Of a DNA stretch of 39,863 nt, positions 4,349 through 39,120 are shown piece after piece. The position numbers and the translations under genes were made by a program. This DNA comes from a virus. The stretch is taken from IMG/VR virus record IMGVR_UViG_3300042939_000077, positions 1 through 39,863 of that record. One strand, written 5' to 3'. Within the stretch, counting starts at the first letter, position 1; every line of letters begins with the position of its first letter. The notes below the pieces were generated by a model, which made no database searches, had not been told where the DNA came from, and worked only from the letters and a program-made list of their open reading frames with translations.

Positions 4349-5202
4349 TGACGCTGCGCATCATCGACACCTTCAGCGGCATCGGCGGCTTCTCGCTTGC
4401 TGCCCGCTGGCTTGGTGGCTTCCAGACGGTGCAGTTTGTCGAATGGGAGCCCTACTGCCAGCGCATCCTTGCCCAGCACTTCCCCGGCATCCCCATCCAT
4501 GGAGACATCACCACCTTCTTCCCGGCAGCGGGAGCAGCTGACGTTGTTTGCGGTGGCTTCCCCTGCCAAGACATCAGCACCGCAGGCAAGCAGGCAGGCA
4601 TCAAACAAGGCACTCGGAGCGGTCTCTTTTACGAACTCATGCGTGTCGTTCGCGCAGTACGACCCCGCTACGTCGTCTTGGAGAACGTCTCAGCGATCCT
4701 TGCTAACGGACTGGACACCGTTCTCGGGGAGCTGGCCGAGGCAGGGTTTGATGCGGAGTGGGCATGTGTACCAGCGAGTGCTGTGGGAGCCTGCCACCAG
4801 CGCGACCGGTGGTGGCTTGTTGCCCACGCCCGTTGCCCAGACCAGCCAAGGCGGTCCGAAGGGGCTGGACGGCGGCAGTGCAGCCCGGCAGATGCTGGCA
4901 GCTGCAGGTTTTCCCAGGGCGGCCGGTGCGCCGACGCCACTGCCGACCCCAACGGTCAACGACAGCAAGAACAGCACCCTGCCACCGTCGCAGATCGACC
5001 GCGATGGCCTCGCTGGGGCGATGCTCCGCGATCCCTCAATCCAGACTGGCAAAGCTACCTATCTGAACCCGTCCTTCGTCGAGGAGATGATGGGTTATCC
5101 GGTCGGGTGGACCGTCTCAAAGCCCTAGGCAACGCCGTCGTGCCGCAGGTGGCCATGATCCCCCTGCAGCGCGTTCTCGACCTTCATCATCCACACCCAT
5201 GA
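4348..5202 (+). CDS. DNA (cytosine-5) methyltransferase (284 aa)
   Basis: The enzyme transfers a methyl group from S-adenosylmethionine to C5 of cytosine in DNA. Seen in order: motif I DTFSGIGGFS (residues 7-16), motif IV GGFPCQDIS with the catalytic Cys near residue 72, motif VI ENV, motif VIII QRDRWW, and motif X LGNAVVP near the end. At 284 residues it is at the short end of the family, with little room for the target-recognition region, so the site may be short. No partner restriction enzyme is seen, so the likely role is protecting phage DNA from host restriction or regulating genes. It is coupled to the genes before and after by ATGA-type overlaps. Confidence 0.95.
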   Translation: MTLRIIDTFSGIGGFSLAARWLGGFQTVQFVEWEPYCQRILAQHFPGIPIHGDITTFFPAAGAADVVCGGFPCQDISTAGKQAGIKQGTRSGLFYELMRVVRAVRPRYVVLENVSAILANGLDTVLGELAEAGFDAEWACVPASAVGACHQRDRWWLVAHARCPDQPRRSEGAGRRQCSPADAGSCRFSQGGRCADATADPNGQRQQEQHPATVADRPRWPRWGDAPRSLNPDWQSYLSEPVLRRGDDGLSGRVDRLKALGNAVVPQVAMIPLQRVLDLHHPHP

Positions 5203-5387
5203 ACTACGCCCTCCGCATCGGTCCCTGGCACGTCGGACCGTTCACCACCCACATCGCTGCCACCACCTTCGCAGAGCAGCACGGCTGCGACGACTACACC
5301 CTGATTCCCCTGGACGACCCGGCTGAGGCGCCCGCCCGGATCCACCGGATGCGGATGGCGCCGCTGAAGCATCCGATGCGCGAATAG
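5199..5387 (+). CDS. Small hypothetical protein (62 aa) next to attP
   Basis: A 62-residue protein whose ATG overlaps the methyltransferase stop. It opens with strands (YALRIGPWHVGPF) and has a His/Arg-rich C-terminus (ARIHRMRMAPLKHPMRE). The last codons lie within the first TGCGCGAA arm repeat of attP. It is the last gene before the terminator. Small basic proteins in this position can be excisionases, but no helix-turn-helix is visible, so that is only a possibility. Confidence 0.65.
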   Translation: MNYALRIGPWHVGPFTTHIAATTFAEQHGCDDYTLIPLDDPAEAPARIHRMRMAPLKHPMRE

Positions 5388-5398
5388 TGCGCGAACGG
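5377..5398. repeat. Left arm-type repeats of attP (two tandem 11-mers)
   Basis: Two adjoining 11-base repeats, TGCGCGAATAG (5377-5387) and TGCGCGAACGG (5388-5398), share the core TGCGCGAA. The same core recurs four times on the other side of the tRNA-derived core, next to the integrase gene. The layout fits arm-type binding sites for a tyrosine integrase. The first repeat supplies the stop codon of the upstream gene. Confidence 0.7.
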
Positions 5399-5401
5399 CG
5401 C

Positions 5402-5441
5402 AAATAGCAGGCAGGGCGGCTTCTGGCCGCCTTTGCTATTT
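5402..5441. terminator. Intrinsic terminator after the methyltransferase unit
   Basis: A two-part hairpin: AAATAGCA (5402-5409) pairs with TGCTATTT (5434-5441), and inside it GGCGGC (5415-5420) pairs with GCCGCC (5426-5431). A run of T follows at about 5446-5451. The symmetry allows action in both directions. It separates the early transcription unit from attP and integrase. Confidence 0.75.
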
Positions 5442-5462
5442 CACTGTTTTTGCTGGGGTTTT

Positions 5463-5512
5463 TGGCTCCCCGACCTGGACTCGAACCAGGGACCATTCGA
5501 TTAACAGTCGTA
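5463..5512 (-). other. attP: attP core: 3' half of a tRNA-Asn(GUU) gene
   Basis: Read on the minus strand, 5512-5463 gives the anticodon arm with loop CTGTTAA (anticodon GUU), a 5-base variable loop, a perfect T arm (CCTGG, loop with TTCGAGT, CCAGG), the 3' acceptor strand, discriminator G and CCA. The 5' half of a tRNA (D arm, 5' acceptor strand) is absent and the outer anticodon stem has one mismatch, so this is not a working tRNA gene. It is the classic attP of a tRNA-targeting tyrosine integrase: integration at a host tRNA-Asn would rebuild an intact 3' end. The integrase gene starts 144 bases away. Confidence 0.92.
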
Positions 5513-5522
5513 TTTGGCGGGC

Positions 5523-5648
5523 TCACGCAAATTCACGCAAACTCGCTAAGTGTCTGATCTGGCCATTTGTTTCCCACTTGCCTTCTCATTGCCGTTCGCG
5601 CAATGTCACCGCCGTTCGCGCAAATCTGCGCGAATGGTGCGCGAATGG
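5523..5648. repeat. Right arm repeats of attP
   Basis: TCACGCAAA occurs twice, at 5523-5531 and 5533-5541, beside the core. A 13-base repeat GCCGTTCGCGCAA occurs at 5591-5603 and 5611-5623; it contains TTCGCGCA, the inverse of TGCGCGAA. Two tandem TGCGCGAATGG copies follow at 5627-5637 and 5638-5648. With the left arm there are thus six TGCGCGAA sites, four direct and two inverted. The last copies lie immediately upstream of the integrase ribosome-binding site, so bound integrase could repress its own gene. Confidence 0.75.
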
Positions 5649-5655
5649 AGAGAAC

Positions 5656-6759
5656 ATGAAGCGAGAGTGGATCCCCGATACCAAGGTGCCCGGCCTTGGC
5701 ATCCTGAAGCTGCCCACCGGGGTCGAGACTTGGTACCTGCGGCTGCGGGAGCCGGGCGGCAAGCAGAAGCATCACCGCATCGGGCGGCTGCCCGCCATCA
5801 GCCGCACGCTGGCGCGGGAGGAAGCGCACAAGCTGCTGGCCGCCGTCGCCAAGGGTGAGGCGCCCACCAGCGCACGGCAGGAACTGCGCCGTGGTCCATC
5901 GGTGGCGGACCTCTACGAGCGCATCAAGGCCAAGCATCACCCGAAGCTGCGGCCAAGCACCGTCAAGGGGTATGTCTGCACTTGGGACCTCCACATCATC
6001 CCGGCGCTGGGCAGCACCAAGGTCCAGCTGGTGACCACCACGCAGGTGGTCAACCTGATCGAGAAGATCGGCGGCACCCAAGCCAACCGCACGCTGGCGA
6101 TCATGCGCAAAGCGTTCAACCTGGCGATCCTCTGGGGGATGCGCGCCGACAATCCCTGCGCCAAGGTGCCGGGCAACGGTGAGCGCAAGCGGCGCCGTTA
6201 CCTGACTCGGGAGGAGCTGCAGCGGCTGCTGGCCGCCCTCGACGGGTTCGCTGAGGCCGGTGTGCGGTGGCGTTTTGCTCAGCTGGTGCGCCTGCTGCTG
6301 CTCACGGGCTGCCGGGTCTCGGAGATTAAGGACGCCCGCTGGGAATGGCTGCAGGGCAGGGTGCTGGTGGTGCCACCGGAGTGCCACAAGACCGGCCGCG
6401 ATGGCCACCCACGGCTGGTGCAGCTGACGCCGCCGGCGCTGGAGGTATTCCAGCAGCTGCGGGCACGGTCCAACAGCGACTGGATCATCCAGGGCGATGG
6501 CGACCACCCGCTGGTGGGGTATCACAAGCTGTGGGAGGAGCTGCTGGCTGCGGCCAAGATCACCAACCTGCTGGTCCACGACTTGCGCCACAGCTACGCC
6601 AGCATGGCCGTCAGCGCCGGGCTGAGCCTGCCGCAGATCGGTGGGCTGCTGGGGCACGCCAGCCCGCTCACCACCGCCCGCTACGCGCACCTGGTGGACG
6701 AGGCAGCCACTGCTGCAGCAGCACTGGTGGCAGCGCAAATAAAAACCCCGGCTGGCTGA
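5656..6759 (+). CDS. int: Tyrosine-family site-specific integrase (367 aa)
   Basis: The protein catalyses recombination between attP and a host attB, here predicted to be tRNA-Asn. An N-terminal arm-binding-like region (about 1-75) and a core-binding SAM-like domain (about 80-175) precede the catalytic domain. Catalytic residues are Arg220 (TGCRVSEI), Lys245, His308 and Arg311 (HDLRHSYAS), His334 (LLGHASP) and nucleophile Tyr343 (TARYAHL). ATG at 5656 is chosen because GGAGAG lies just upstream and the upstream in-frame extension is made of attP arm repeats. It is expressed rightward and ends in a shared terminator with the convergent late genes. Confidence 0.96.
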   Translation: MKREWIPDTKVPGLGILKLPTGVETWYLRLREPGGKQKHHRIGRLPAISRTLAREEAHKLLAAVAKGEAPTSARQELRRGPSVADLYERIKAKHHPKLRPSTVKGYVCTWDLHIIPALGSTKVQLVTTTQVVNLIEKIGGTQANRTLAIMRKAFNLAILWGMRADNPCAKVPGNGERKRRRYLTREELQRLLAALDGFAEAGVRWRFAQLVRLLLLTGCRVSEIKDARWEWLQGRVLVVPPECHKTGRDGHPRLVQLTPPALEVFQQLRARSNSDWIIQGDGDHPLVGYHKLWEELLAAAKITNLLVHDLRHSYASMAVSAGLSLPQIGGLLGHASPLTTARYAHLVDEAATAAAALVAAQIKTPAG

Positions 6760-11912: not shown

Positions 11913-13445
11913 TTAGACGATCACCCAGCTGGCGCCTGATGGCACCGTGACCGTGATGCCGGCGTTGACGGTGATCGGCCCAGCGCTCATGGCGTTTTTG
12001 CCAGTGCTCAGAGTGTAGTTCGTTGTGACGGTTTGGCCATTCTCCACGAATACCGTGTCGGCACCGCCACCTGTTGCGCCACCGCCCAGCTGTCCCCATG
12101 CGGTGCCGTTGTAGCCCTCGAACTGCGTCAGGCTGCTGTTGAACCGGATCATGCCCGAGCTAGGCGTGCCGGGGCGTTGTGCAGTCGTACCAGCCGGCAA
12201 GTCGATGTAGCCGGTGCTGGTGGTGTCGATGTTGCCCGAGAAGGTCAGGCCAGTCAGCGTGAGCGTGCCGGCGGTGAAGTTGCCCGAGGCGTCACGCGCA
12301 ACGATGGCGCTTGCCGTGTTGGCGCTGGTGGCGTTGCTGGTCACGGTCGGGTTGCCCGCCACGCCGTCGGCGTTGCTTACGCTCAGGCCGGTGCCGGAAA
12401 CCGCAATCGAGCGAGCCGTGACCGTGTTGGCTGCGGTGCGGGTGATCAGGCCGTTGGTGGCCAGGTTGCCCACAGCGGCCAGCTGCGCGTTGCTGACCAG
12501 CTGCCAGGTGATCGCGGTGGTGCCAAGCGTGCCGCCGCGAGCGGTCTCTGACAGCCAGAAGGTGTCGTCGTTGACGGTGCCCTGCTCAATCGGCGTGTGC
12601 GCGCCGATCAGATCGTTCCAGGTGTCGGCGTCGGTGGCGCGGGTCAACACCCATGCCACTGCTGCGGTGCCGACCGTCGTGACGGTGTAGATGCCGTTCT
12701 GGTTGGTGGTGGCCTGATCCTTGACCAGCACCCGATCACCCACCGACAGGGCGATGCCGTCGATGCTGATGGCAACCAGCGTGCCGGCGTTGGTGAGCGT
12801 GCTGCTGGTGGCCGTCACCGTCAGCGCTGCGGTGGTCGCCACCCGGCAGCTCTGCTTCGGCGCCAGGCTTTGCACCCACTGGCGGGGGACAGCGTGTAGG
12901 TCTGCGGTCGGGTCACCGGAGAGCGTGATCGCGCCGGTCATGGTGCCGCCGGCCTTCAGCAGCGCGTCGTTGGCGATCTCAGCGTTGACGAACGCCGTAG
13001 TGGCGATCTGCGTGGTGTTGGTTCCGGTCGCGGCGGTCGGAGCCGCAGGTGTGCCGGTCAGCGTGGGGCTAGCCAGGGGGGCGTAGCTCTGCGCCTTGAC
13101 GAAAGCTGTGGTGGCGACGTTGGTGTTGTTGTCAGCCGTGGCCGGCGTGGTGGCAGTCGCTGCGGCCAACGCCGTGGAGCCCGTCACCGACAGCGTGCCG
13201 CCAATGGTGGCGTTGCCGGTGGTGCTCAGAGCGGTGAGCGCGTAGGTGGCGGCCAGCTCCGCCCAGCTGCTGCCGTTCCATTTCTTCCAGCGGTTGGCGG
13301 TGCTGTCCCAGCGGATCGTGCCAACGGAGAGGTTGGTGCTGGTGGTGCCATCGAACTGCAGCGCCAGATCGGTATCCCGATCCTTCAGCTGGTTCATGAA
13401 GTCGGTGTAGGTGCTCGTCAGCACCGGGTTCGACCAGTTAGCCAT
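11913..13445 (-). CDS. Long tail fibre protein (510 aa)
   Basis: The start overlaps the gpJ stop (ATGA). The N-terminal domain (MANWSNPVLTSTYTDFMNQL, then RWDSTANRWKKWNGSSW) is a typical attachment region. Two repeats with SPTLTGTP/ATTAFV and TNVATTAFVKAQ elements follow, then GDPTADLHAVPRQWVQ, a motif recurrent in phage fibres. A middle beta domain (about 195-320) precedes MIRFNSSLTQFEGYNGTAWG and a Gly-rich C-terminus. It likely trimerises and forms the shaft attached to gpJ at the tail tip. Confidence 0.85.
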   Translation of the reverse strand: MANWSNPVLTSTYTDFMNQLKDRDTDLALQFDGTTSTNLSVGTIRWDSTANRWKKWNGSSWAELAATYALTALSTTGNATIGGTLSVTGSTALAAATATTPATADNNTNVATTAFVKAQSYAPLASPTLTGTPAAPTAATGTNTTQIATTAFVNAEIANDALLKAGGTMTGAITLSGDPTADLHAVPRQWVQSLAPKQSCRVATTAALTVTATSSTLTNAGTLVAISIDGIALSVGDRVLVKDQATTNQNGIYTVTTVGTAAVAWVLTRATDADTWNDLIGAHTPIEQGTVNDDTFWLSETARGGTLGTTAITWQLVSNAQLAAVGNLATNGLITRTAANTVTARSIAVSGTGLSVSNADGVAGNPTVTSNATSANTASAIVARDASGNFTAGTLTLTGLTFSGNIDTTSTGYIDLPAGTTAQRPGTPSSGMIRFNSSLTQFEGYNGTAWGQLGGGATGGGADTVFVENGQTVTTNYTLSTGKNAMSAGPITVNAGITVTVPSGASWVIV

Positions 13446-16400
13446 CAGACCCCCCTCGCGCTCCAGCTAAAGCCGCCGCTCACCCGTGTGCCAGAGGTGT
13501 TGAACAGGAGCACCTTGAAGCTCGTGGGGTTTGGCGCGTCAACGAAATCATAGACCGCAATCACGCCAGTGGTAGAGGCTGGCGTCACCGAGATGCTCTG
13601 CACATCCACGAAAGCCACGTTGAAGTTCACGGTGGTCCCGCCGCTGTCACCACTATTCGCGGTGCCACTGCCTGCGTCATTGCGGAGCTTGGAGTCGAGC
13701 CGCACGTTGAGCGCGGTGAGCAGCATCAAGTCGTTGCCGCCGGCGCTGGCGAAGTCGTAGCGCACTCGGAAATACCGGAACTGGGTGACGAACACCTCAC
13801 TGAGGCCGGCGTAGCTGGTCCACTTGATCCAGCTCACGTTGCCGCTGGTGGTCGCGCTTGCTGCGGTGACCGTGAAGCTGTTGGCGGCCGCCGTTGCCAC
13901 CACATAGGTGCCGTCGGTTGCGGTGCCTGAGGTGAAGTCCAGGTAGACGTAATCACCGGCCACCAGGCCGTGCGCGGTCGAGGTGACCGTGATGGTCGTG
14001 GTGGTCTGCGAGTAGGTCGCTGAAGTGCTGGTGGTGCCGCGCACGCGGATCGTCGGCGTGATCGTCGTGGTGCCCACCACGCTGCTGCTGGTCAGTGTGG
14101 CGCTCACCTTGGTGCCGGCTAGCACGGTGCCGTAGTCGAACTCCTCCTCGTAGGCCGCCGTGGTGGTGGATGGCATCAGGTAGTAGGTGTATCCCGCAGT
14201 GATCTGATCCTGCGGGCTGGTGTAGCTGCGGCTGGTGAAGTGGCTCTGCCAGGTTTCGGTCGTGTTGACGTTGACGATCTGCCCCAGCAGCGTGTCGGTG
14301 TAGATGTTGGTCTCGTCGCCCGCCCAGGTGCTGTTCTGGTCAAACTGCAGCACATAGTCCGGCGGCTGGTTAACCACTGCGCTCACGCTACCGGGCGTGC
14401 CGTAGTTGCCAGCCGAGTCGATGCCTGCCAGCCAGTAGGTGTAAGTACCTGATGCGGTCTCGAACACCGTGGTGAAGCCGCCCTGCTTGGTGCCGATCAC
14501 GGTGCCAGCTGCCCAGCTCGCACCCTTGCGCAGCTCGTAGTTCAGGATCGGCAGCGTCTGCGTCACATCGTTCCAGCGCAGCAGCACGTTGTTGTCGATC
14601 ACCTGCTGGGTGATGGTCGGCGCAGATGGCACGGTCACGATCACGTCAAGGTCGTCGGGCGTGCCCTCGGTGCCGTTGATGTCTACTGCCGCCAGCCAGA
14701 ACTTCTGCGTGCCACTCCAGTCCGCCTTCAGCGTGTAGGCCGTGCCCTTGATCGTGGCGACGGTGGTGCCTGCGCCCCAAGTGGCGCCGCGCTTGAGCAG
14801 GTAGAACTCGGTGTCGAGCGTGCCCTTGATCGCCGCCCAGCTGAAGACCACGTTCTGGCCGGAGAAGCTGGAGGCCAGCGCCGGTGCGCCTGCCGCATTG
14901 ACGGTGATCACCGCCGAGGCTTGCGTGCCGTAGTTGCCGTTGGCGTCCTTGGCCACCACCCAGAAGGTCTGGCTGCCACTCCAGGTGGCCTTCAGCGTGT
15001 AGCTGGTGCCGGTGATGTTGGCGAGCACCGTGGCGGTCGAGAAGGTGGCGCCCTGACGGATCTCGTAGGTGTCGGTCGGCAGGGTGCCGGCCACCGCCGT
15101 CCAGCTCAGCGTGGCGGTGCTGCCGCCCACGGAGGTGGTGATGGTCGGCGCTGCAGCGCCCGTGATGGTGACCACCTCGCTGTCGGGCGGGTCGGTGAAC
15201 TTGCCAACGGTGTCCACAGGCGCCACCCAGAAGGTGCGTGCGCCGGTCCAGGAGACCGGCACTGTGAACGTGGTGCTCTGCGTCCTGGCCAGCTCTGTCG
15301 AGGTGGCATAGCTGTTGCCGAACGTCACCCGGTAGTAGGCGATGGCGTAGGTGGCAAGCGTCGGCACCGTCCACGACAGCACCAAGTCGGTGTTCTGGAT
15401 CGAGCTGCTGATCGTGGTGGGATTGGCGCCAGCGATGGTGACCGACCGGCTTGCGGCGTTGGTGCTGTAGACGCCCGAGGTGTCGATGGCCTTTACCAAG
15501 TAGGTGTAGGTGCCGTCGTCCAGATAGCCGAGCTTGTAGGTGGTGGCCTTCACCTGCGTCACCAGCGTGGCGCTGCCCCAGTTGGTGCCACGCCGGATCT
15601 CGTACTGATCGGCGTCGATGTCTGGGATGGCATCCCACGTCAGCGTGACGCCCAGGTCCTTGTCAGCCGTGAAGTTCAGGTTGACCACATCGCTCGGCGG
15701 TGCGGTCTTGCCCAGAGCGTTGATGCTGCCGGTGAGTTTGCTGGTGGAAATCTTGAAGCCCGCCTGCTGTGAGTAGATCTCAAACGCAAACGTGCCCGGC
15801 GTAATGTCGAGCACCTCAAAGTCAGGACCATTGGCAACAGCGGTTTCCCAGTTGGCCAGATCCTTGCGCCATTTGACGATGTACTGGTTGACGCCGACCA
15901 CCGGCTTCCAGCTGGCGAGCACCTTGGCGCGAACCTGCCCCTGGTACTCGTAGAGCGCCTCGCTGAGGTCCAAGTTGGTGGGCGCTGCCGGCAGGACGTT
16001 CAGGTTGGTGACATCGCGCTGCTGCAGCGGTCTGTCCTGCTCGATGTAGGCGTACTTGCTGGAGTTGTAGGCCAGCGCCGTGATGGTGTACTGCGCCTGC
16101 TCTTCCTCCGTGACGCTCAACACCCGCCACTGCGTCGTCTGGATGTCATCGGTCTGATAGATCCACACGCTGTTGGCGTTTGGCGCGGTGGTGAACGCTG
16201 ATGCCAGCGAAATCACGTTGCCGCTGATGCTGGCGATGTTGCGGGTCTCGACGGTGCCGTTCGGCAGGATCACCGAGAGCGTTTTGTTGTTGCCCGCCGT
16301 GACGCCCGTGGTGTCGTCAATGGTGACGCTGGTGGTTGTAGCTGAGCGGATGCGCCCACCACGCCGTTGGCCAGCTTTGACCGGATCGGCCACCTGGATG

Positions 16401-18319
16401 ATCTGGCCGGGGCGAACGACCACGCCAGCGTCGATGCTGGCCTTAAAGCTGATCACCTCGCTTTCGTACTTCTCGGAGTAGAGCAGCCATTCCCCAAGCC
16501 GGTGCGCCTGGCCGCGTGAGGTGCAGGCAAACGCCGAGATCTCGCTGGTCACCACGCCGTACTTGGCGATGCCGGCCTGGTCCTCCACCACCTCGTAGGC
16601 AATGTCGCGCAGCTCTAGGTCCAAGTAGCTGACCACTGCCACGGTTGGCCGTCCCTTCAGGCTGCCGCCGCTGTAGCTGAAGCCTTCCTCGGAAATGTTC
16701 GCCAGCGTGAACAGGTAGGCCGGATCGCCCGGCTTGTCCTGCGTGATCGTCAGTGCGCCGGTGCTCCAGTAGGGCATGGCCCGGAACACCGAGCACATGT
16801 CGTTGATGAGCTTGTAGGCGTCCTCAGCGGTCTGAATGTTGACGTTGCAGCTGAAGCGTGGCTCCTGCCCGCCAAAGCCATCAGGCACCAGCGCCGAGGC
16901 GTACTGGCTGGCAGAAAAGAACGCCCACTTGTCCAGCTGCGCGGCTTGGATGTGATCACCGAAGCCGTAGCGGGTCGAGGTGAGCAGGTCCCAGAGGATC
17001 CAGGCCGGATCGGTCGTCCACGCTGCAGCGCCGAAGGATCCGTTCCACACGCCCGCATAGATCAGCCTGCCGGTGGTGCTGTCGACCGTGGCGTTGCTGG
17101 GGATCGCCACCTTGATGCCGCGCACTAGGTAGCTGCGGCGGGGGATGGAATTGAACTGCTCGGCGTCAACGCGCAGGCCGACCAGTGCGCTGTTGGGGTA
17201 GCGCAGCTTGGCGTAGACGATCTCGGTGTAGCTCTGCCAGCTGAAGGCGTTCATCAGCTTGGCGCTGCCGCTGTCGGCCGTCACCCGCGTGACCCTAATG
17301 TTCACCGGGAAGGCGCCGGTGAGGTTCACCAGGTAGTCGCGCTGGTAAGCGTCAGCCGTGCGGCCGCTGATCGTGTTGTCGATCACCGTGGTGTAGCCGC
17401 CGCCGTTGTACGAGACAGCGATCTGTAGCTGCACGCTGGTGCCAACGATGTCGCCGGCATCAGTGAACTGCTGCAGCTGCGGCACGTTGATGGTGACGCG
17501 CACCGCGTTCACGTTGGTGTCGGTGATCGAGCGCACCACCGGGGTGGCCTGCTGCACCGTGACGTTGACGGCTTTCTCGTCTTCGACCTCAGCCGCAATC
17601 GGGATGTAGCTCTGGTTCTGCGTGCCGGTGCGCGTGTGGACGGTGACGTTCTGGAAGTTGTAGGAATTGTCCGGGTTCTGCAGCGGGGTGTTGTCGATAA
17701 AGATCGACTTGTGGCCGTCCTTGAGCCCTTGGATCTCGCCCTCGCTGATCAGGTCGATCAGGTTGGCGTATTGCGTGCTGTTGAGGTTGTCAGCCGCCTC
17801 CGTGGGCGTGCGCGTGCTGCTGCCGCCACCACCTTTGCCGCCGCCGCCCCCACCGCCGCCTGCACCTGCAATGCCGAGACCCAAGCCAGCGTTATGGACG
17901 CGGATGCCGCCAGCGATGAAGGTGTGGTGCCCTTCGACCGTCAGGTTGTAGACGGTGCCCCGGCCGTGCTCGGTGCGCTCAACGATGGGTCGCAGGTGGC
18001 CGTTCTCGTCCACCAGGCAGTCGTCGGCGCCCAGCGTGCCGATCTCCACGAAGGCGTTGAACTGGTTGAGCACCCAGTGGTTCGGGGTGGCATCGAGCAC
18101 CGCACCGCCCCAGAGCCGGTAGCGCACCACGCGCTCGTTCTCGTGGACGTGGACCTTGAGCACCTCCGCCTGGTGCACTTCGCCCTGGTCGTCAAAGCTG
18201 AGCACCTGGTCGCCAGGCTGCAGCGTTTCGATGGCACGCAGCCCATCAGGCGTGCGCACCAGCGTGTGCCCAAGGAAGCACCCGCCGCCACCACCGCCTG
18301 CGCCGACGATCCTGGTCAT
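13445..18319 (-). CDS. J: Lambda gpJ-like tail tip / host-specificity protein with an embedded Hint domain (1624 aa)
   Basis: This is the central tail-tip protein. Residues 1-13 are Gly-rich, residues 14-143 are an intein-like Hint domain, and a second Gly-rich stretch follows. The gpJ body begins at TPTEAADNLNSTQ and keeps lambda landmarks such as YTEIVYAKLRYPNSALVGLR, VPDGFGGQEPR and FACTSRGQAHRLGEWLL (to about residue 770). Six fibronectin-III-like modules follow (about 775-1315). A C-terminal beta region contains a YVYLDFTSG module (about 1434-1494) shared with gpL. The extra 490 residues over lambda gpJ come mainly from the Hint domain and FN3 repeats. The start overlaps the gpI stop (ATGA). 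Confidence 0.95.
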   Translation of the reverse strand: MTRIVGAGGGGGGCFLGHTLVRTPDGLRAIETLQPGDQVLSFDDQGEVHQAEVLKVHVHENERVVRYRLWGGAVLDATPNHWVLNQFNAFVEIGTLGADDCLVDENGHLRPIVERTEHGRGTVYNLTVEGHHTFIAGGIRVHNAGLGLGIAGAGGGGGGGGKGGGGSSTRTPTEAADNLNSTQYANLIDLISEGEIQGLKDGHKSIFIDNTPLQNPDNSYNFQNVTVHTRTGTQNQSYIPIAAEVEDEKAVNVTVQQATPVVRSITDTNVNAVRVTINVPQLQQFTDAGDIVGTSVQLQIAVSYNGGGYTTVIDNTISGRTADAYQRDYLVNLTGAFPVNIRVTRVTADSGSAKLMNAFSWQSYTEIVYAKLRYPNSALVGLRVDAEQFNSIPRRSYLVRGIKVAIPSNATVDSTTGRLIYAGVWNGSFGAAAWTTDPAWILWDLLTSTRYGFGDHIQAAQLDKWAFFSASQYASALVPDGFGGQEPRFSCNVNIQTAEDAYKLINDMCSVFRAMPYWSTGALTITQDKPGDPAYLFTLANISEEGFSYSGGSLKGRPTVAVVSYLDLELRDIAYEVVEDQAGIAKYGVVTSEISAFACTSRGQAHRLGEWLLYSEKYESEVISFKASIDAGVVVRPGQIIQVADPVKAGQRRGGRIRSATTTSVTIDDTTGVTAGNNKTLSVILPNGTVETRNIASISGNVISLASAFTTAPNANSVWIYQTDDIQTTQWRVLSVTEEEQAQYTITALAYNSSKYAYIEQDRPLQQRDVTNLNVLPAAPTNLDLSEALYEYQGQVRAKVLASWKPVVGVNQYIVKWRKDLANWETAVANGPDFEVLDITPGTFAFEIYSQQAGFKISTSKLTGSINALGKTAPPSDVVNLNFTADKDLGVTLTWDAIPDIDADQYEIRRGTNWGSATLVTQVKATTYKLGYLDDGTYTYLVKAIDTSGVYSTNAASRSVTIAGANPTTISSSIQNTDLVLSWTVPTLATYAIAYYRVTFGNSYATSTELARTQSTTFTVPVSWTGARTFWVAPVDTVGKFTDPPDSEVVTITGAAAPTITTSVGGSTATLSWTAVAGTLPTDTYEIRQGATFSTATVLANITGTSYTLKATWSGSQTFWVVAKDANGNYGTQASAVITVNAAGAPALASSFSGQNVVFSWAAIKGTLDTEFYLLKRGATWGAGTTVATIKGTAYTLKADWSGTQKFWLAAVDINGTEGTPDDLDVIVTVPSAPTITQQVIDNNVLLRWNDVTQTLPILNYELRKGASWAAGTVIGTKQGGFTTVFETASGTYTYWLAGIDSAGNYGTPGSVSAVVNQPPDYVLQFDQNSTWAGDETNIYTDTLLGQIVNVNTTETWQSHFTSRSYTSPQDQITAGYTYYLMPSTTTAAYEEEFDYGTVLAGTKVSATLTSSSVVGTTTITPTIRVRGTTSTSATYSQTTTTITVTSTAHGLVAGDYVYLDFTSGTATDGTYVVATAAANSFTVTAASATTSGNVSWIKWTSYAGLSEVFVTQFRYFRVRYDFASAGGNDLMLLTALNVRLDSKLRNDAGSGTANSGDSGGTTVNFNVAFVDVQSISVTPASTTGVIAVYDFVDAPNPTSFKVLLFNTSGTRVSGGFSWSARGV
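13837..14017 (-). repeat. YLDFTSG module, gpJ copy
   Basis: This segment encodes TVTSTAHGLVAGDYVYLDFT and continues DGTYVVATAAANSFTVTAAS, ending in TSGNVS. Bases 19780-19968 in gpL encode a closely matching segment, and the two are similar at DNA level too (for example both contain GTGAAG and CACGTTGCCGCTGGTG-like starts). It is an exchangeable ~60-aa beta module present in two different tail proteins of the same phage. Confidence 0.75.
17891..18280 (-). other. Hint / bacterial-intein-like domain inside gpJ (130 aa, no endonuclease)
   Basis: Residues 14-143 of gpJ. Splicing block A is seen as CFLGHTLVRTPDG with Cys1, block B as LDATPNHWVL (T-x-x-H), block F as VYNLTVEGHHTFIAGG, and block G as IRVHN with the final His-Asn. 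No homing-endonuclease insert exists and 130 residues is the minimum size for a Hint fold. The next residue is Ala, not the Cys, Ser or Thr that standard protein splicing needs. Both flanks are poly-glycine. This matches the type-A bacterial-intein-like (BIL) layout, whose members can cleave and sometimes splice. The outcome here cannot be told from sequence. Confidence 0.88.
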
Positions 18320-38213: not shown

Positions 38214-38909
38214 ATGACAGAGAGCACAGCACTCACGACCACCAGCCAGAGCGGCTCGGTGTTCAGCGGCATCCAAGCGTTTGAGGATGCCCAGCGGATC
38301 GCCAAAGCACTGGCCAGCAGTACGCTGATCCCGCCGCAGTTTCAGGGGCAGAACGGGTTTGCCAACTGCCTGGTGGCGCTGGAGATCGCCAACCGGATGC
38401 GGATGAGCCCGTTCCAGGTGATGCAGAACCTGCACATCATCCACGGGCGCCCCAGCTGGAGCAGCCAGTTCATCATCGGCCTGATTAACGGCTGCGGGCG
38501 CTTCAGCCCGCTTCGGTACGAGATCAGCGGCAGCGGTGACAGCCTGGCCTGCTACTGCGAGGCGACGGAGCTGGCGAGCGGGAAGGACCTGAAGGGTCCG
38601 ACCGTGAGCATGGCGATGGCGAAGAAGGAGCAGTGGGCGACCAAGGCCGGCAGCAAGTGGCAGACGATGCCCGAGCTGATGGTCCGGTATCGCGCCGCAG
38701 CCTTCTGGGGGCGGCTCTACATCCCCGAGCTGCTGGTCGGCATCCAGACGCAGGAGGAGGTGCTGGACGTGGAGCCGGTGACCATTAGCGAGGCACCGGC
38801 CGCGACCGTGCAGGACCTGAACGAGAAGATCACGAAGCAGAAGCCGGCTGCTCAACCGGCCAAACCAGAAGCAGTGGAGGAGGTAGTGCTTGATGACGAA
38901 ATCTTCTGA
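38214..38909 (+). CDS. RecT-family single-strand annealing protein (231 aa)
   Basis: The partner of the RecE-like nuclease, coating and annealing complementary single strands. The core shows LIPPQFQGQNGFANCLVALE, RMRMSPFQVMQNLHIIHGRP, SWSSQFIIGLIN and MPELMVRYRAAAFWGRLY, the pattern of the phage RecT group. The C-terminal 45 residues are an acidic, proline-rich tail ending EEVVLDDEIF, like the protein-recruiting tails of SSB-type proteins. It overlaps the next gene by 17 bases. Confidence 0.92.
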   Translation: MTESTALTTTSQSGSVFSGIQAFEDAQRIAKALASSTLIPPQFQGQNGFANCLVALEIANRMRMSPFQVMQNLHIIHGRPSWSSQFIIGLINGCGRFSPLRYEISGSGDSLACYCEATELASGKDLKGPTVSMAMAKKEQWATKAGSKWQTMPELMVRYRAAAFWGRLYIPELLVGIQTQEEVLDVEPVTISEAPAATVQDLNEKITKQKPAAQPAKPEAVEEVVLDDEIF

Positions 38910-39120
38910 GGCTGGTTATCTCCAGCCGCGTGAGCTGGCAGAGCGTTGGCGCGGTGTCGTCACGCTGAGCACGCTCGACAACTGGCGCAGCCAGAACCGT
39001 GGTCCTCGGTTTGTGAAGATCGGCGGCCGCGTCTTGTATCCCGTCGCGGAGGTCGAGGCGTATGAGCTTCGGAACCTGCGCGGGATGCCCAACAATCCAC
39101 CCAATCAACCGAGACCATGA
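38893..39120 (+). CDS. Small helix-turn-helix protein, AlpA/excisionase-like (75 aa)
   Basis: A winged-helix/MerR-type motif covers most of the protein: YLQPRELAERWRGVVTLSTL (first helices), DNWRSQNRGPRFVKIGGR (recognition helix and wing) and VLYPVAEVEAYEL. This is the layout of phage AlpA-type regulators and excisionases. ATG 38893 follows GGAGGAGGT; a TTG one codon earlier is possible. It lies in the recombination operon, not next to int, so it may be either an excisionase acting in trans or a regulator. Together with the ribbon-helix-helix candidate at 2080 it is the best lead for lysogeny control. Confidence 0.85.
   Translation: MTKSSEAGYLQPRELAERWRGVVTLSTLDNWRSQNRGPRFVKIGGRVLYPVAEVEAYELRNLRGMPNNPPNQPRP

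Follow-up and report, generated by a model that had tools for sequence, protein, structure and literature searches.

The attachment site of the mycobacteriophage Boilgate is of the lambda type, with the 3' half of tRNA-Lys as its core (PMC10865867). For Fionnbharth and other actinobacteriophages, tRNA-dependent lysogeny has been shown experimentally, and its discoverers asked whether other phages than actinobacteriophages use it and how the two strategies, tRNA dependence and tRNA rebuilding, are connected (PMC10865867). The integrase of KplE1, intS, is an autoregulated, tRNA-associated integrase whose promoter region falls within the attachment site (PMC2951348). For unicellular picocyanobacteria, lysogeny has been called rare and largely unproven (PMC6157547). 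We analyzed a 39,863-bp virus record from IMG/VR, the whole of which we call the window, and conclude that the region upstream of its integrase gene is very probably the attachment site (attP) of a temperate siphophage that probably infects freshwater picocyanobacteria, with tRNA-Asn(GUU) as its target and a lambda-type integrase.

A preliminary description of the window reported six copies of TGCGCGAA, and all six are in place, at 5377 and 5388 (plus strand), 5595 and 5615 (minus strand), and 5627 and 5638 (plus strand). The entire window contains eight copies, compared with a mean of 2.56 and a maximum of 7 in shuffled sequences. Six of the eight are clustered inside 269 bp, where about 0.017 would be expected from the shuffle mean, so chance clustering is negligible. 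The same description recognized, on the minus strand, the 3' half of tRNA-Asn(GUU) without its 5' half, and we found the same: positions 5510-5463 read CGACTGTTAATCGAATGGTCCCTGGTTCGAGTCCAGGTCGGGGAGCCA, comprising the anticodon loop CTGTTAA (GUU), the T arm CCTGG/TTCGAGT/CCAGG, the 3' strand of the acceptor and a terminal CCA, and neither ARAGORN nor Rfam found a complete tRNA in the window. The 48-nt core alone folds no better than shuffled sequences, as expected of half a tRNA, and the complement of its anticodon is at 5503-5505. The adjoining gene indeed encodes a tyrosine integrase (Phage_integrase PF00589, 8e-18; Arm-DNA-bind_3 PF13356, 3e-11) with catalytic, core-binding and arm-binding domains, and its catalytic residues R220, H308xxR311, H334 and Y343 are invariant in 16 relatives.

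Features of the predicted attachment region, and the integrase and candidate excisionase genes, with window coordinates.
Feature	Position	Strand	Basis
Small ORF, MNYALRIGPWHVGPF...LKHPMRE and stop	5200..5387	+	final codons form the first left arm site, which overlaps the stop; relatives have homologous ORF ends ahead of their left arms
Left tandem arm-type sites, TGCGCGAATAGTGCGCGAA	5377..5395	+	tandem pair kept in nearly all relatives with an intact left flank
Terminator-like hairpin in left spacer	5413..5433	+	z of -3.7 for the window's left spacer
Core: tRNA-Asn(GUU) 3' half with CCA, anticodon stem to 3' end	5463..5510	-	core-arm geometry common to relatives
Direct repeat TCACGCAAATTCACGCAAA, kept in relatives as TCACGnnnnTTCACG	5523..5541	+	sequence; alignment of relatives
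Conserved CTAAnnnnCTGATY block	5546..5559	-	alignment of relatives
Promoter-like element of the integrase gene (TTGCCT and CAATGT, 17 bp apart)	5578..5606	+	conserved in relatives; -10 starts within inverted arm 1 (5595-5602)
Inverted arm-type site 1	5595..5602	-	sequence; same in relatives
Inverted arm-type site 2	5615..5622	-	sequence; same in relatives
Right tandem arm-type sites, TGCGCGAATGGTGCGCGAA	5627..5645	+	adjoin the integrase ribosome-binding site; most conserved block
Tyrosine integrase, 367 aa, arm-binding N-terminal domain	5656..6759	+	domain matches; catalytic residues
Small HTH_17 protein	38896..39120	+	PF12728, E 7e-5, under the curated cut-off

As a list of arm sites, the preliminary description was right about the six TGCGCGAA copies but incomplete, having overlooked the weaker TTCACG repeats at 5523-5541, which may be weaker arm-type sites or excisionase sites. 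IHF-like motifs, the terminator-like hairpin and the small ORF under the left arms also went unlisted. The complement of the CTAAnnnnCTGATY block matches the IHF consensus with one mismatch in relatives, the window version being weaker, and the block is a putative DNA-bending site. The small HTH_17 protein is a candidate excisionase, and in this linear record its gene is far from that of the integrase. Elsewhere in the window, a homolog of tail protein J (13445-18319) begins with a Hint/intein-like domain at 17717-18316 on the minus strand (PT-HINT, 5.5e-13; Intein_splicing, 1.3e-6).

Integrases roughly 50-85% identical to that of the window are found in some 80-100 IMG/VR contigs. We compared 80 distinct upstream regions, counting that of the window, built an integrase tree from the 67 members with a usable integrase and attP, and aligned 29 dereplicated sites to measure conservation. 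The arm motifs are kept over 50-100% integrase identity, and in nearly all relatives a tandem arm pair on the left is followed by one or two inverted copies and by a second tandem pair where the integrase begins. In the 29-site alignment conservation is highest in the arms (1.88 of 2 bits for the right arms), and the TCACG repeats and the CTAA-CTGATT block are prominent as well; the spacer DNA between motifs is largely poorly conserved, yet its lengths are fixed. In the divergent relative L176, both left and both right arm copies read TGCGCCAA and the inverted site reads TTGGCGCA, a concerted change that is expected when a single protein reads every site. Judged by this conservation, the ~80 related attPs show that the arm repeats are functional, and their shared scaffold strongly supports the earlier description of a complete attP with arm-type sites.

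Two further arrangements occur among the relatives. In L004, L008, L011 and L014, the integrase begins with residues encoded by the last arm site (MVREW; ATGGTGCGCGAATGG in L004), so that arm DNA and integrase N-terminus constrain one another. In L211, L241, L264 and L277, the left arm pair is joined straight to an apparent integrase 3' end (...AAALVAAQIKAPA and stop), which looks like a deletion of core, right arms and integrase between repeats.

The geometry of these sites was measured from the anticodon triplet to the tandem arm pairs. The right pair lies at 124 bp in 54 of the 57 minus-oriented attPs (two others at 125 bp, one at 135 bp), and this spacing is common to minus-oriented cores from tRNA-Asn, tRNA-Lys, tRNA-Thr, tRNA-Phe and tRNA-Met. 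The left pair of minus-oriented sites lies at 125-127 bp (n=31), 115-116 bp (n=10), 105 bp (n=1) or 83-84 bp (n=11). A second clade, with the tRNA half on the plus strand, has left distances of 81-82 bp and right distances of 144-146 or 134 bp. Spacing changes are near whole helical turns (periodicity test on six total-spacing classes, p 0.007), a suggestive pattern drawn from few classes and related sequences.

At least seven tRNAs are targeted across the family (Asn, Lys, Phe, Thr, Met, Arg and Gly), in two layouts. In layout A, found in most relatives and the window, attP contains a tRNA 3' half, and the window, whose core starts in the anticodon region and continues to the 3' end of the tRNA, is of this rebuilding type. 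In layout B, found in 12 distinct relatives, the core is the anticodon stem-loop only, with no tRNA half, and immediately outside the left arm stands a complete tRNA matching the core in isotype, identified by ARAGORN as tRNA-Lys(UUU) in L002, L012, L018, L020, L139, L140, L142, L144, L145, L146 and L246, and as tRNA-Met(CAU) in L023. Insertion of a layout B phage into the anticodon loop would break the host tRNA, the phage copy replacing it. The window has a long core and carries no tRNA gene, and so lacks the features of tRNA-dependent lysogeny. A separate clade (L182, L186-L190, L229) has another core upstream of the integrase, GGTTCTTCGCC...ACCCTCCAGC; we considered a tmRNA as the core of L187 and L189 and rejected it, as Rfam returned neither tRNA nor tmRNA for these two.

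The integrase tree requires at least five changes between layouts A and B and at least eight changes of target isotype. A single clade of layout B integrases was rejected (p-AU 7.5e-65, in a test that presumes a group named beforehand). L136 (layout A) and L140 (layout B) have sister integrases that are 94.8% identical, and their upstream DNA is similar from the core rightwards, with left spacers that are dissimilar except for the arms. In four A/B pairs, including this one, homology begins 3-14 nt left of the anticodon triplet, from which the left module appears to have been swapped whole, close to or at the point of strand exchange. We tentatively raise the broader idea, about which we are rather doubtful, of a cyanophage integrase lineage whose attP scaffold stays fixed while its target modules can be exchanged, with repeated changes of target tRNA and repeated switches between rebuilding and replacement, the breakpoint in the core suggesting integrase recombination between attPs; that the integrase itself would perform the exchange is a guess. 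Strong hairpins in the left spacer (z < -2) are found in 21 of 42 layout A sites and 1 of 11 layout B sites, counts inflated by sequence kinship; their frequency in layout A would be expected if the transcript of a rebuilt tRNA must be terminated.

Upstream of the integrase, a TTG lies 17 or 18 bp before a -10-like CANNNT in 27 of 29 dereplicated relatives, with the hexamer starting within the first inverted arm, and the last T of the -10, at a position outside the arm motif, is conserved in 28 of 29. A consensus promoter scan of the window did not report this element, whose hexamers (TTGCCT and CAATGT) are weak. Autorepression of the integrase through arms overlying both the promoter-like element and the ribosome-binding site is plausible. 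The putative promoter of the window integrase would fall within the attachment site, and integrase on the inverted arms would block it, as for KplE1 intS (PMC2951348).

We propose that the integrase, bound to the TGCGCGAA arms through its N-terminal domain, delivers the core to a tRNA-Asn(GUU) gene of the host, where strand exchange would occur within the anticodon stem-loop, judging from the core boundary. The phage tRNA 3' half would join the host 5' half and rebuild a working tRNA-Asn beside the left arm; the 3' half that belongs to the host gene would be pushed to the integrase side. The overlapping arms would probably permit the integrase to repress itself. In the relatives, this integrase lineage has kept the scaffold as its target tRNA changed, with a subset bringing a complete tRNA instead of rebuilding one.

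A host tRNA-Asn gene with this exact 3' half, and a related prophage next to it, had been anticipated in the preliminary description, and our searches of IMG/VR, the GTDB r220 set and Pseudomonadota genomes found neither. The 43-nt core is absent from IMG/VR outside the window and from 398 Pseudomonadota genomes, cyanobacteria being outside this search, and the closest sequences in the Pseudomonadota genomes are two matches at 3 mismatches. In the GTDB r220 genome set, integrase identity over its length never exceeds 37%. There is no integrated copy among the IMG/VR relatives; every relative with intact flanks carries both arms and thus has the unintegrated form. ARAGORN suggested restored tRNAs in L239 and L183, but both arms are present in each, and we therefore class these as attPs.

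Could the tRNA piece instead be the remnant of a decayed phage tRNA gene, with the repeats serving as operators for a regulator of the integrase gene and playing no part in attachment? The repeats do lie where the integrase gene has its promoter-like region and ribosome-binding site, and integrated copies were seen in neither the GTDB set nor the IMG/VR relatives. However, five minus-oriented tRNA species share the anticodon boundary, 124 bp from the right arms, and decay would lose both a constant half boundary and this spacing; arms are also found far to the left, 250 bp off, and change in concert. We thus consider decay extremely improbable. Scarcely more credible is that conserved arms and fixed spacing reflect recent common descent and nothing functional. 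All of the sequences are homologous, and the periodicity test rests on six spacing classes, but mere descent does not fit spacers that are mostly poorly conserved and constant in length beside right arms at 1.88 of 2 bits, nor a target that has been replaced repeatedly with the spacing restored each time. A working attP remains our preferred reading.

For a real attP, the host could be a proteobacterium whose IHF binds the IHF-like sites by the core, a reading that we judge unlikely. IHF-consensus-like motifs of relatives adjoin the core, Roseobacter phages are close second matches, and tRNA-Asn genes of a kind that is common in IMG/VR contigs of betaproteobacterial appearance share the 32-nt T-arm/acceptor part without a difference. 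Set against these, the 43-nt core is unmatched at two or fewer mismatches in the 398 Pseudomonadota genomes (two matches at three), and the best phage matches of all four marker proteins are Synechococcus siphophages, with identities of 39-50%: S-CBS3 and S-CBS1 for the terminase (47%), S-LBS1 for the capsid (39.5%), S-H1 for the exonuclease (50%), and S-LBS1 for the primase-polymerase (48.7%, versus <37% for the other phages listed). The picocyanobacterial host named in the preliminary description is thus supported by these proteins but by no host genome, and from the marker proteins we consider such a host likely. We rejected IHF as a clue to the host, as family models with the default threshold fail to tell IHF from HU in controls. 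The 32-nt part was likewise rejected as a host identifier, since it occurs in 45 IMG/VR contigs, every one with another anticodon stem. No psbA was found in 38 relatives, which, together with the modest marker-protein identities, makes the host assignment an indirect one. The integration module is also present on a second backbone of ~55 kb (L140), with a terminase closest to that of S-LBS1 (44.6%); L136, L140, L143, L144, L145, L174 and L180 carry the module on a 49-57 kb backbone without the window's primase-polymerase.

Two records invite direct comparison. S-LBS1 (MG271909), a freshwater Synechococcus siphophage, has a related capsid and primase-polymerase and encodes an integrase too (PMC6157547), but that integrase is unrelated beyond its catalytic end (28.6% over 42 residues), and S-LBS1 has one TGCGCGAA without tandem arms. 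The prophage CBW1004C-Prop1 (MZ188970) has a terminal, unannotated tRNA-Asn 3' half (L194 6001-6054, the end of MZ188970.1), and its integrase, annotated at the opposite end of the record, would be next to this half in a circularized form. Unlike the window, it has another tRNA-Asn sequence and ATATACCCAA repeats, with TGCGCGAA arms absent in the stretch read; it is a second, independent tRNA-Asn attP.

The attP of the window itself belongs to a known kind. Like Boilgate-type attPs, it combines an arm-binding N-terminal domain, arms on both sides and a 3'-half core that would rebuild the tRNA (PMC10865867), and it differs in having two extra inverted arms in the promoter-like region, a tRNA-Asn target and a probably cyanobacterial host. 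The interest lies in the family, with its constant scaffold, exchangeable targets and both strategies of tRNA supply in probable cyanophages, and the ~80 metagenomic attPs with predicted tRNA targets provide exact query sequences for host genomes. The layout B relatives resemble Fionnbharth, LeBron and Gaia in pairing a short anticodon stem-loop core with a complete, isotype-matched phage tRNA, and here, as there, both strategies are mixed among close phages (PMC10865867). They differ in the position of the tRNA, which flanks the left arm directly on its outer side, in being probable cyanophages, and in a tRNA dependence that is predicted from layout. The family thus carries the layout of tRNA-dependent lysogeny over to probable cyanophages, and because sister phages with ~95% identical integrases follow opposite strategies, the question of rebuilding versus replacement becomes directly testable.
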